From positions 6,200,001 to 6,264,000 of the forward strand of contig NZ_CP065053.1 in assembly GCF_015689335.1 (NCBI RefSeq): a DNA stretch of 64,000 nt. The letters run 5' to 3'. Positions within the stretch are counted from its first letter, which is position 1; each line of letters starts with the position of its first letter. This stretch comes from Massilia antarctica (GTDB lineage: Bacteria; Pseudomonadota; Gammaproteobacteria; Burkholderiales; Burkholderiaceae_D). The translations under genes and the position numbers were made by a program. The notes below the pieces were generated by a model that saw only the letters and a program-made list of their open reading frames with translations, made no database searches and was not told the DNA's origin. This document shows positions 3,727 through 8,772 of the stretch, in pieces.

Positions 3727-4128
3727 TCACGCCAATGCGCGCACGCCTGGCGCCAGCCGATAGTTCGCGGTATCGATTCTAAAGCTGTCAAAGCGGAAAA
3801 TATCGTCCGCGATCGCCCGGTCCTGATGCAAACGGCTGAGTACCCTGCCATCGGCGGAATCGACAATCAACACATCGAGATCGACAACACCCTCCCCCTC
3901 CGGGCCCGGCTCGGTCGGGCGCGGGCCAGCCATGTAGGCAAGCGCGACAATGCTTTTGCCTGGCGCCGACGGCATCGGTTTGCAGTCGACGCGCAGCGCG
4001 GTCGCCTCTTCGCGTCCGATCGCGGCGGCGGCTCGCGTGTCGATGGCGCTGGTGCAGGAAGCCTTCTCGGCTGCACACCACGAGGAAACGAGGCAGGCGC
4101 CGATCAGCGCGATTTGCAATATTTTCAT
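3727..4128 (-). CDS. Small exported protein of unknown function
   Basis: This is a 133-residue protein with an N-terminal signal sequence ([20 protein letters not shown]). The start at 4128 is chosen because AGGAGT lies at 4135-4140, at proper spacing; a longer open frame to 4182 lacks such a site. The mature part has two Cys (CTS, DCKP) that could form a disulfide and a beta-rich stretch with acidic patches ([19 protein letters not shown]). SSWC is not a good lipobox. I do not recognise the family. It is convergent with the amidohydrolase gene and divergent from dctA. Confidence 0.65.
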
Positions 4129-4281
4129 TTCGATACTCCTGTCCGTGGAAATATTAACAGTAAGGTAAGGCAATCGAAACACGCATGCGCAAAGTCGGCC
4201 GCACTGCGGATATCCACAATAGATGATGTGTCCGTTTTGGATAAAGATAGATTTATTCCAATACCGAACGGAGACACCGTC

Positions 4282-5640: not shown

Positions 5641-6357
5641 CTATTTCAAGCGATAGATCACGTCGACCGGCTGCGCGAACCTGAGCGCCATCACGGTCAG
5701 CACATCCGCCTTGTCCATGCCGGTCTGCGGCGACGAGCGATCATTCGCCTCGTTCGGCGCCAGCCCCATGGCCCGCGTCAGGTTCTTCAAGTCGCCCGTA
5801 CTGACCGCATTCGCAGGCCCCAGCTTGCGTCCCAATCCCAGCGCAATCGCCTCCGCCTTGCGGCGCGCGATCCTGATCGCATCGGCGGCCAGTTCCATCT
5901 CGATTTTGTCGCGCCGGGTCGTATCGAACACCGTCATGAAGCCGTCCAGGTTCGGCATGTCCAGCAGCGGTGCGGCGACGGCGCGCCATTTGCTCAGGTC
6001 GCGCACATTGATGCGCACCCCGGCGCGGATATCGTACTGCACCGGCGCCGGCGCCGCGTTCGCATCCGGCTTGCGGAAGTCCTTGCGCACATCGCGCACC
6101 TCCACATCGTCCAGCGGCACGCCGGCCTGCGTCATTGCCGCGCGGATGTCGTTGGCGCGCGCCTGGACCACACGTACCGCCACCGCCGGATCGGCGTCGG
6201 AGGCACTGATCTCGACATCGATCTGCCCCAGGTCGGGCATCGCGCTTGTCGTACCCGTGGCGCTGACATGGATGAACGGATAGTCGGGCAAGCCGCCAGC
6301 CTGCGCGGCCACGGGCAGCAAGGTCAGGGCGCCGATGGCGGCGATCGTTTTGAGCAT
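5641..6357 (-). CDS. Periplasmic SIMPL-domain (DUF541) protein
   Basis: This 238-residue protein has a signal peptide (MLKTIAAIGALTLLPVAAQAG). It then has the SIMPL/DUF541 fold: an IHVSATGTTSAMPDLGQIDVEIS start, a VQARANDIRAAM helix, and the later ADAIRIARRKAEAIALGLGRKLG helix that is typical of the family. SIMPL proteins are beta-rich periplasmic or outer-membrane-associated proteins often induced by envelope or oxidative stress; their biochemical role is not settled. It is transcribed away from the TonB-like gene at 6542. The shared intergenic region holds three BlaI-type inverted repeats, so it is probably part of the BlaI-controlled set. Confidence 0.88.
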   Translation of the reverse strand: MLKTIAAIGALTLLPVAAQAGGLPDYPFIHVSATGTTSAMPDLGQIDVEISASDADPAVAVRVVQARANDIRAAMTQAGVPLDDVEVRDVRKDFRKPDANAAPAPVQYDIRAGVRINVRDLSKWRAVAAPLLDMPNLDGFMTVFDTTRRDKIEMELAADAIRIARRKAEAIALGLGRKLGPANAVSTGDLKNLTRAMGLAPNEANDRSSPQTGMDKADVLTVMALRFAQPVDVIYRLK

Positions 6358-6405: not shown

Positions 6406-6423
6406 ATAGACATTATTGTCTAT
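6406..6423. promoter_or_regulatory. Operator 1: BlaI-type inverted repeat
   Basis: ATAGACATTATTGTCTAT is a perfect 7-bp inverted repeat with a 4-bp spacer. It sits 49 bp upstream of the SIMPL-domain gene start. The identical 18-mer recurs at 6983-7000 before the blaI-like gene. Proposed as a binding site for the BlaI-family repressor at 7118; this is inferred from the repetition and location. Confidence 0.72.
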
Positions 6424-6459: not shown

Positions 6460-6489
6460 TAGACAACCTTGTCTAGACAGTTTAGTCTA
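6460..6489. promoter_or_regulatory. Operators 2 and 3: two overlapping BlaI-type inverted repeats
   Basis: TAGACAACCTTGTCTA (6460-6475, perfect arms) shares its last two bases with TAGACAGTTTAGTCTA (6474-6489, one arm mismatch). The second runs into TATAAAT (6488-6494), which could be the -10 region of the TonB-like gene at 6542. A repressor on both sites would block that promoter. Confidence 0.72.
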
Positions 6490-6541: not shown

Positions 6542-6937
6542 ATGACCCCGTCCACAAGCTCGACTTCACTTATTCCGACCCGCCTGACACGCAGTGTGGC
6601 GCTGTTGGCCCTCGCAGCCGGCTGCATGGCCGCCAGTGCGCACGCCGCGCCAGCCAGGGCCGCGAACACCCACGCCATCGTCAACCTGACATCCTGCGCC
6701 AAGCCGGCTTACCCGGCCGAAGCGCGCGCCGCCCATCAAGCCGGCACGGTGAAACTGGCGTTCCTGGTCGACGCCAGCGGCGATGTCGTCGACACCAAGG
6801 TAAAAAAATCGAGCGGCCACGTTGCGCTCGACGACGCCGCCCGCAATGCCATCAAACTGTGCAAGTTCAGCGCCGCCACCGCCAAGGGCAAGCCGGTTGA
6901 AAGCTGGGTCGACATCGCCTACGTGTGGAAGCTGTAA
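6542..6937 (+). CDS. Exported TonB C-terminal-domain protein, paralogue of the M56 protease tail
   Basis: This 131-residue protein has a signal peptide (about residues 14-36, ending SAHAAPA) and then a single TonB-C-like domain. The domain runs CAKPAYPAEARAAHQAG, VKLAFLVDASGDV, SGHVALDDAARNAI and WVDIAYVWKL. There is no transmembrane anchor or Pro-rich spacer as in a real TonB, so it is a free periplasmic domain. Its sequence is closely similar to the last 90 residues of the M56 protease at 7498 (CAKPVWPA, SGHVLLDDAART, MEYVWML), including both Cys positions. AAGGAGA precedes the start. Operators 2 and 3 lie in its promoter. Confidence 0.85.
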   Translation: MTPSTSSTSLIPTRLTRSVALLALAAGCMAASAHAAPARAANTHAIVNLTSCAKPAYPAEARAAHQAGTVKLAFLVDASGDVVDTKVKKSSGHVALDDAARNAIKLCKFSAATAKGKPVESWVDIAYVWKL

Positions 6938-6982: not shown

Positions 6983-7000
6983 ATAGACATTATTGTCTAT
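6983..7000. promoter_or_regulatory. Operator 4: BlaI-type inverted repeat upstream of the blaI-like gene
   Basis: ATAGACATTATTGTCTAT is an exact copy of operator 1, with symmetry extending one more base on each side (A...T). It lies 117 bp before the repressor gene start. Confidence 0.7.
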
Positions 7001-7059: not shown

Positions 7060-7075
7060 TAGACATAAAAGTCTA
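7060..7075. promoter_or_regulatory. Operator 5: BlaI-type inverted repeat in the blaI promoter
   Basis: TAGACATAAAAGTCTA has 6-bp arms with one mismatch and a 4-bp spacer. It lies 42 bp before the BlaI-like start codon, a typical autoregulatory position. Confidence 0.68.
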
Positions 7076-7117: not shown

Positions 7118-7501
7118 ATGCCCAAACTCCCTGCCCCGCCCAAGCCGACAGCGGCCGAACTCGATCTGCTGCAAACCCTGTGGCCGCTCGGCGCAGCGAC
7201 CGCCAAGCAGGTACACCATGCGATCCTCAAGGAACGCCCCGACGTGACCTACGCGACGGTGCTGCGGCTGATGCAGATCATGCACACCAAGGGTTTGCTG
7301 ATCCGCGACGAAAGCGAACGCTCGCACGTCTACGCTCCCGCGCAAGCCCAGGATTGCCTGCAAACGAACCTGCTCAAGGACCTGATCCAGAAAGCCTTTT
7401 CCGGCTCGGCCAAGGCGCTGGTCATGGCCGCACTGCGCAGCGGCATCAGCAAAAAGGAGCGCGAAGAGATCGAAACCATGCTCAAGGAAGACGACCAATG
7501 A
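7118..7501 (+). CDS. BlaI/MecI/CopY-family transcriptional repressor
   Basis: This 127-residue winged-helix repressor has the family N-terminus PTAAELDLLQTLWPLGAATAKQVHHAI, a recognition helix (VTYATVLRLMQIMHTKGLL) and the wing DESERSHVYAPAQ. A C-terminal dimerisation region follows (LLKDLIQKAFSGSAKALVMAAL...ISKKEREEIETML). BlaI-type dimers bind short inverted repeats and are cleaved when a partner M56 protease is activated. The partner overlaps its stop by 4 bp (ATGA). Five matching inverted repeats occur nearby, two of them in its own promoter region. Confidence 0.93.
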   Translation: MPKLPAPPKPTAAELDLLQTLWPLGAATAKQVHHAILKERPDVTYATVLRLMQIMHTKGLLIRDESERSHVYAPAQAQDCLQTNLLKDLIQKAFSGSAKALVMAALRSGISKKEREEIETMLKEDDQ

Positions 7502-8772
7502 CGGATGCCCTCATCGACAGTATCGGCTGGACCCTGCTCCACTTCACCTGGCAAGGCTTGCTGATCGGCTGCGCCTGCGCCACGGCGCTATCCCTGATGC
7601 GCAACGCGCGGCCCGAATACCGCTACAACGTGGCCTGCGCGGCGCTGCTGGCCTGCGTGTTGTGGCCTGCGGCCGACCTGGCGCTGCGCCTTCAGGACGG
7701 CGCCGCCGGCACGGCGCACATCGGCCTTGCCGGCCGCATGGCGACCGCCGCGCGCAGCGGCGACACCAGCCTGGCCGGCTGGCTGCAGGAGCAGTTGCTG
7801 TGGATCGTCGGTTTCTGGTCCGTGTGCGCGGCACTGCTGTCGCTGCGCATGGCGTCCGGACTGGTGTGGGTACGCCATGCCGCCAGGGCGCCGTTGGCCG
7901 GCCCGCAATGGCAGGCGGACGCCGCGCGCATGGCGCTCGCCTTCGGCATCACGCGCACGGTGCGCCTGCGCGTGGCCGAACACCTGGACAGCCCGCTGAC
8001 GGTCGGCTGGCTGCGGCCCGTGGTGCTGGTCCCGGCAGCTCTGATGTCCGGCATGCCGCCCGAGCTGCTCGAAGCGCTGCTGGCGCACGAAATGGGGCAC
8101 GTCAAGCGCTTCGACTACCTGGTCAACCTGGGCCAGAACGTGGCCGAGATCCTGCTGTTCTATCATCCCGTGGTGTGGTGGATTTCCGGCCGCATCCGGG
8201 CCGAACGCGAACTGATCGCCGACGACCTGGCGGCGCGCCATCTGGGCGAACCGCGCCGGCTGGCGCGCGCCTTGTCCGAACTCGAACGCCTCCAGTTTTC
8301 CTCGCACCACCTGGCCATGGCGGCCAACGGCGGCGACCTGGTCGCGCGCGTGCGGCGCCTGGTCAAGCCCGGCCGCCAGGCGCTCGGCTGGAAAGCGTCA
8401 TTGCCCGCGCTGGGACTGGCCGCGGCCTGCCTGAGCCTGTACGCCCACGCCGCCGCCCGCTCAAGCGTCGCGCCGACGGTGGCGCGCGTGGCGCCGGTGG
8501 TCGATTTTTCCAGCTGCGCCAAGCCAGTCTGGCCGGCGGCCTCGCTCAAGGCTCAACATACGGGCACGGTCACCTTGGCCTTCAAGGTCGGTGCGAACGG
8601 CCGGGTCGCGGCCGCGCGCGTCGCATCGTCGAGCGGACATGTGCTGCTCGACGACGCAGCACGCACCGGCATCATGAAGTGCCAATTCAAGCCGGGCAGC
8701 GAGAATGGCAAGCCGGTGCCTGCGTGGATGCACATGGAATATGTGTGGATGCTCACGGACGGCGACGACTGA
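7498..8772 (+). CDS. BlaR1/MecR1-type M56 metalloprotease with a C-terminal TonB-like sensor domain
   Basis: This 424-residue membrane protease starts at the ATG overlapping the repressor stop. Transmembrane segments lie near residues 8-30, 43-62, 98-117 and 297-318. The zinc site is HEMGH at 197-201, with the distal Glu in RAERELIADDLA. Classical BlaR1 carries a penicillin-binding sensor after its last helix. Here residues about 335-424 instead form a periplasmic TonB-C-like domain (CAKPVWPA...SGHVLLDDAART...MEYVWML), closely related to the exported protein at 6542. Presumed role: sense an envelope signal and cleave the BlaI-like repressor. The signal is unknown; beta-lactam sensing is not supported because no penicillin-binding domain is present. 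Confidence 0.9.
   Translation: MTDALIDSIGWTLLHFTWQGLLIGCACATALSLMRNARPEYRYNVACAALLACVLWPAADLALRLQDGAAGTAHIGLAGRMATAARSGDTSLAGWLQEQLLWIVGFWSVCAALLSLRMASGLVWVRHAARAPLAGPQWQADAARMALAFGITRTVRLRVAEHLDSPLTVGWLRPVVLVPAALMSGMPPELLEALLAHEMGHVKRFDYLVNLGQNVAEILLFYHPVVWWISGRIRAERELIADDLAARHLGEPRRLARALSELERLQFSSHHLAMAANGGDLVARVRRLVKPGRQALGWKASLPALGLAAACLSLYAHAAARSSVAPTVARVAPVVDFSSCAKPVWPAASLKAQHTGTVTLAFKVGANGRVAAARVASSSGHVLLDDAARTGIMKCQFKPGSENGKPVPAWMHMEYVWMLTDGDD

Follow-up and report, generated by a model that had tools for sequence, protein, structure and literature searches.

A candidate anti-repressor protease with a TonB C-terminal sensor domain, and a free exported relative of that domain, in Massilia antarctica

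What might an anti-repressor protease of the BlaR1 type respond to when its periplasmic end is a TonB C-terminal (TonB_C) domain, and why would a free exported protein with a related domain be encoded beside it? BlaR1-type proteases have mostly been studied for beta-lactam sensing, and M56 genes with other periplasmic ends are widespread in Gram-negative bacteria. The question is raised by a stretch of 64,000 nucleotides from Massilia antarctica (assembly GCF_015689335.1, contig NZ_CP065053.1, positions 6,200,001 to 6,264,000 of the forward strand), here called the window and numbered from its first letter. The reading favoured, at a probability of roughly 0.45 for the whole, is a BlaR1/BlaI-type anti-repressor switch with a different input, in which the free gene would supply a pre-released sensor under the same repressor, giving feedback. 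The genes and sites concerned are these:

5641 to 6357, minus strand: exported SIMPL (DUF541) protein, transcribed away from the free TonB_C gene and predicted to belong to the regulon (PF04402, 76.5 bits)
6407 to 6422, no strand: operator-like palindrome 1, TAGAC-N6-GTCTA, exact match
6460 to 6475, no strand: operator-like palindrome 2, exact match, overlapping palindrome 3
6474 to 6489, no strand: operator-like palindrome 3, exact match
6542 to 6937, plus strand: free exported TonB_C protein, 131 amino acids (PF03544, 70 bits; structure model matches TonB domains)
6542 to 6646, plus strand: signal peptide predicted by eye for the free protein, with AHA ahead of residue 36
6701 to 6934, plus strand: TonB_C domain of the free protein, residues 54-131 (PF03544)
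6984 to 6999, no strand: operator-like palindrome 4, exact match
7060 to 7075, no strand: operator-like palindrome 5, exact match, upstream of the repressor gene
7118 to 7501, plus strand: BlaI/MecI-family repressor, 127 amino acids (PF03965 Penicillinase_R, 77.8 bits against a cut-off of 22.6)
7498 to 8772, plus strand: M56 protease with TonB_C sensor, 424 amino acids (PF05569, 73 bits; PF03544, 52 bits; model matches the BlaR1 fold)
8086 to 8100, plus strand: HEMGH zinc motif of the M56 protein, residues 197-201 (H197, E198 and H201 in 87/87 family loci)
8323 to 8325, plus strand: Ala276 of the M56 protein, aligned with BlaR1 Phe284, the autocleavage P1' residue
8389 to 8457, plus strand: fourth transmembrane helix (TM4) of the M56 protein, residues 298-320, with AHA (316-318) at its end as at the end of a signal peptide (model helix 298-322)
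8521 to 8745, plus strand: tethered TonB_C domain of the M56 protein, residues 342-416 (PF03544; fit to structure 9ddz)

A derepression switch would be the safe part of this reading, because the layout of repressor, protease and operators is that of the bla and mec systems. As in BlaR1/BlaI and MecR1/MecI of staphylococci and bacilli, an M56 zinc-protease core adjoins a BlaI-family repressor, and palindromic operators are present; in the window the two genes share four bases. Assignment to MEROPS M56 / Peptidase_M56 follows from a Pfam match over the cut-off and an HExxH motif, and the NCBIfam models for BlaR1 and MecR1 match only the protease part, far below their cut-off. Whereas BlaR1 and MecR1 carry a penicillin-binding sensor, the Pfam search found no transpeptidase-type domain at the C-terminus here; the preliminary description, made from the sequence, had placed a TonB-C-like domain there and a free exported version of it at 6542, and both assignments hold. 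The module also differs from those of bla and mec in including SIMPL and the free TonB_C protein.

Both of the window's proteins are like other TonB C-terminal (PF03544) proteins in the fold and sequence of the domain, but unlike the TonB energy transducers, to judge from sequence, they have no N-terminal anchor with a long periplasm-spanning linker. About 18 residues lie between the signal-peptide-like N-terminus and the domain in the free protein, and about 22 between TM4 and the domain in the M56 protein. The public label "energy transducer TonB" for free relatives is probably misleading. The M56-TonB_C architecture is itself already annotated in public databases, and hence not new: among 3,327 scored homologues, each of the 120 listed has both Pfam domains, under names such as M56 family metallopeptidase, TonB family protein or BlaR1. 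Models of the free and tethered domains superpose by way of their common reference structure, 9ddz, and models and trees together support a shared fold and ancestry. The motifs at first quoted as shared by the pair are indeed in both domains; they are not specific to it, since they recur in other TonB_C domains of the genome.

Both promoter gaps of the module are filled by the five exact palindromes, which supports, at the level of predicted operators, the initial proposal that the free gene is under the same kind of operator as the repressor. The whole genome has only seven exact sites, five of them at the module. The other two, at 4260464 and 6639283, stand at the starts of gluconokinase-like and TetR-like frames and are taken as unrelated. 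A terminator scan of the locus gave no credible terminator between the genes of the module, a promoter scan of the module gave three weak sites, all on the minus strand (shuffled mean 0.6), and Rfam gave no match between 5500 and 9000 of the window.

The arrangement of repressor and protease is constant across the loci compared. A family-wide search returned an M56 match at E < 1e-15 in 155 of 294 genomes, and the neighbourhoods of 86 matches that reach into the TonB_C end, together with the window, make up a set of 87 loci, 5 of them clipped by contig ends. In all 87 a BlaI gene is directly upstream of M56, and in 86 there is an operator with at most one mismatch upstream of BlaI (43 exact). 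The one locus without such a site is probably L178, where two sites are far upstream, at 2176 and 2244. SIMPL is present in 34 loci.

The fetched flanks of 22 of these loci hold 24 free TonB_C genes, against 1.94 expected at the TonB_C density of the source genome, a comparison in which related genomes are not independent. In the window's clade (5 loci) the free gene is upstream of BlaI, and in the other 17 loci it is downstream of M56; its own start is near operator-like sites (at most one mismatch) in 7. No free TonB_C gene was found in the fetched flanks of M56 paralogues without a TonB_C tail (0/21 loci), nor at any of 64 more distant tail-less M56 loci (67 minus 3 with a TonB_C tail), these last being from other taxa and searched with a less sensitive profile, built from the source genome's TonB_C domains.

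The course of events that the family and the operators would suggest has three steps. The BlaI-like repressor, on TAGAC-N6-GTCTA sites, would repress SIMPL, the free TonB_C gene and its own operon. A periplasmic partner would then engage the tethered TonB_C domain and turn on the cytoplasmic zinc protease, and the repressor would be cut. According to a passage of PMC12204202, TonB C-terminal domains bind their targets through strand addition, so that the partner would be expected to be an envelope protein or peptide; candidates are a strand resembling a TonB box and some other component of the envelope that stress exposes. SIMPL and the free TonB_C protein would then be made, and the free domain would take up the same partner, so that the switch is damped or reset. 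The free domain may well give feedback of this kind, and it could have a direct role in the envelope besides. Competition with the tethered sensor, or its titration or mimicry, which the preliminary description had proposed, is likewise a hypothesis.

The tethered sensor might itself be released. A signal-peptidase site after TM4, which the window's protein may have, would be a further likeness to BlaR1. In a passage of PMC9834060, the signal peptidase SpsB of Staphylococcus aureus cuts BlaR1 just past TM4, at Gly331, and the sensor is shed, which a Gly331Lys change blocks. Most M56 members of the family have a small-x-small motif at the TM4 end (A316-H317-A318 in the window), and its spacing from a conserved Trp is constant. 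Of 80 segments, 14 have a lipobox there, in each case at W+17 (shuffled mean 3.6), and 60 of the 66 that remain have [AG]xA (shuffled mean 27.0). Alone, the motif is weak, because both patterns recur in the same proteins: AxA is found also at M56 residues 258, 275 and 308, and lipobox matches at residue 25 in 48/87 and at residue 47 in 31/87. The use of lipobox or AxA as proof of cleavage was accordingly dropped.

The reading of the TM4 end as a release site gains weight from the published shedding of BlaR1 and from free lipoproteins homologous to TM4 plus sensor. At L198, L221 and L203 the homology of the free lipoproteins to the M56 of relatives spans signal peptide, lipobox and linker and reaches into TM4, the best scores for the N-terminal likeness being 164 (shuffled maximum 53), 125 (49) and 117 (53). 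By analogy with BlaR1, the TM4 end, being like that of a signal peptide, may allow the tethered TonB_C domain to be shed, in which case the free gene would directly encode the shed form.

Autocleavage is another matter. The published account in PMC9834060, in the part that deals with it, places the BlaR1 site at Ser283-Phe284 and describes the F284A protein as autocleavage-deficient, with BlaI still cut at a reduced level. Where BlaR1 has Phe at P1', the aligned residue here is Ala, as it is in 87/87 loci, and not a bulky one, an assignment that rests on the alignment and leaves another site possible. Autocleavage in the style of BlaR1 is therefore not expected at Ala276.

A bolder form of the same idea, doubtful as it stands, would make the tethered and free proteins two states of one cassette. 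TM4 would function as an internal signal peptide; the sensor would be freed by signal peptidase I or, in certain species, by signal peptidase II with a lipoprotein as the product; and the TM4-sensor cassette would have been copied repeatedly to separate genes under the same repressor, where the pre-shed sensor resets the switch. On the M56 tree the lipobox state at the TM4 end changes 5 times, which gives too few independent pairs to tie lipobox to free gene. One clade (100/98) unites the free genes of L198, L221 and L203 with tethered domains from L210, L222 and L227, and a single group of the tethered domains of L198, L221, L210, L222 and L227, picked after earlier trees, is disfavoured (p-AU 0.033).

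Several observations weigh against feedback by a pre-released sensor. There is no free TonB_C gene in the flanks examined at 65 of the 87 loci (5 of the 87 being clipped). Within the window the free and tethered domains are about 50% identical, for which "nearly the same domain", as the preliminary description put it, is too strong. The sensor of its own locus is the first-ranked match for only 3 of 24 free domains (median rank 8.5), and the likeness of the window's free signal peptide to TM4 is marginal, with a best score of 63 against 61 for the highest of 200 shuffles. Within the window's clade both domains are under purifying selection (ten pairs each), and constraint is weaker on the free domain (dN/dS 0.39-0.70) than on the tethered one (0.10-0.32).

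The idea that the free domain was copied recently from the sensor beside it was rejected, the window's own sensor ranking 26 of 87. Free domain and own sensor pair in trees at few loci, for example L209 (100/86 in one tree and 96/77 in another), and the trees single out no tethered domain as the nearest relative of the window's free domain. Synonymous divergence over the same species pairs (window, L166, L167, L169 and L171) is lower for the free gene, at 0.18-0.44, than for the tethered one, at 0.55-1.09.

The main rival to feedback is a role as output, possible if somewhat unlikely, in which the free TonB_C protein acts in the envelope, on peptidoglycan or at the outer membrane, and resembles the sensor only because of where the domain came from. 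The weaker constraint on the free domain would fit this, as would its predicted co-regulation with SIMPL, often in the same operon, the lipobox seen by eye on several free partners elsewhere, and the fact that the source genome encodes, remote from M56, at least four further TonB_C proteins that are small and exported (3362580, 3629900, 2001655 and 2399140). A general envelope role does not, however, predict that the free partners cluster with the M56 sensors. A tree built from 44 tethered and 24 free domains and from 6 others of the source genome, with few columns and many open forks, sets the M56-associated domains, free and tethered, apart from the rest (support 90/76). The source genome also has, at L044 (G000:C1:5956467 and 5957699), two adjacent genes in which about 240 more residues come after a TonB_C domain.

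It is improbable that the free gene is a bystander, arising again and again by local duplication of the 3' end of M56 and carried in the operon without a role in signalling. The patchy presence of the gene, which changes 13 times on the M56 tree, would suit such an origin, but the window's clade keeps it in 5 species with dN/dS below 1, and elsewhere it has operators of its own even when downstream of M56 (L172, L187). About as improbable is a sensor of TonB-dependent transport, docking on the TonB boxes of receptors while the free domain competes with TonB: strand addition as in PMC12204202, and a TonB-like protein as the tethered domain's closest match in the source genome (56%), speak for it, but the module has no TonB-dependent receptor and the link of about 22 residues is very short for the outer membrane unless the domain is released.

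The source genome has a further M56 gene that bears on possible cross-talk:

2960119 to 2962153 of G000:C1 (L038, 5120-7154; G000:2960208): M56 paralogue with a long non-TonB tail, with relatives L252-L271

Its protease part is 53% identical to that of the window, and it is alike also in its TAGA...TCTA arrays and TM4 end. No relative of the window's BlaI is found at E < 1e-6 in the fetched flanks of the paralogue at any of 21 loci, 20 of which have three overlapping TAGA-N8-TCTA sites with 14-base phasing and the remaining one two sites. An unrelated BlaI (23% identical) and M56 are about 1.7 kb downstream of the paralogue in the source genome. Elsewhere in it, at L279 (G000:C1:7140315-7140744), is a BlaI gene 63% identical to the window's, with no adjoining M56 frame in the stretch seen; upstream of it is TAGATAATTTATTCTA, a near match to the third of the orphan M56 paralogue's sites, TAGATATTTTATTCTA. 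From these sequences, the L279 BlaI and the orphan M56 are possibly a split pair that could cross-talk with the window's system. Away from the module, at 3727 to 4182 of the window on the minus strand, is a protein matching NCBIfam PA3715_dom (71.1 bits against a cut-off of 70).

The pair was at first put forward as not known to have been described. No description of an M56-TonB_C/BlaI regulon or of a free partner was found in open-access full texts, subscription papers and preprints being outside the scope; one candidate, PMC12578637, was rejected as a coincidence of words. The fusion itself is common, and the shedding of the BlaR1 sensor is a precedent.

The locus offers a tractable case: the sensor has a binding fold that is well understood, the operators can be read from the sequence, few genes make up the predicted regulon, and several relatives encode the sensor twice. 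It opens to direct test what such a domain detects when it is part of an anti-repressor protease, and whether the release of the sensor, which is turnover in BlaR1, has come to serve as a signal or as part of a feedback loop. If tethered and free forms are states of one cassette, the protease would, in the lipoprotein variants, in effect report on lipoprotein processing.
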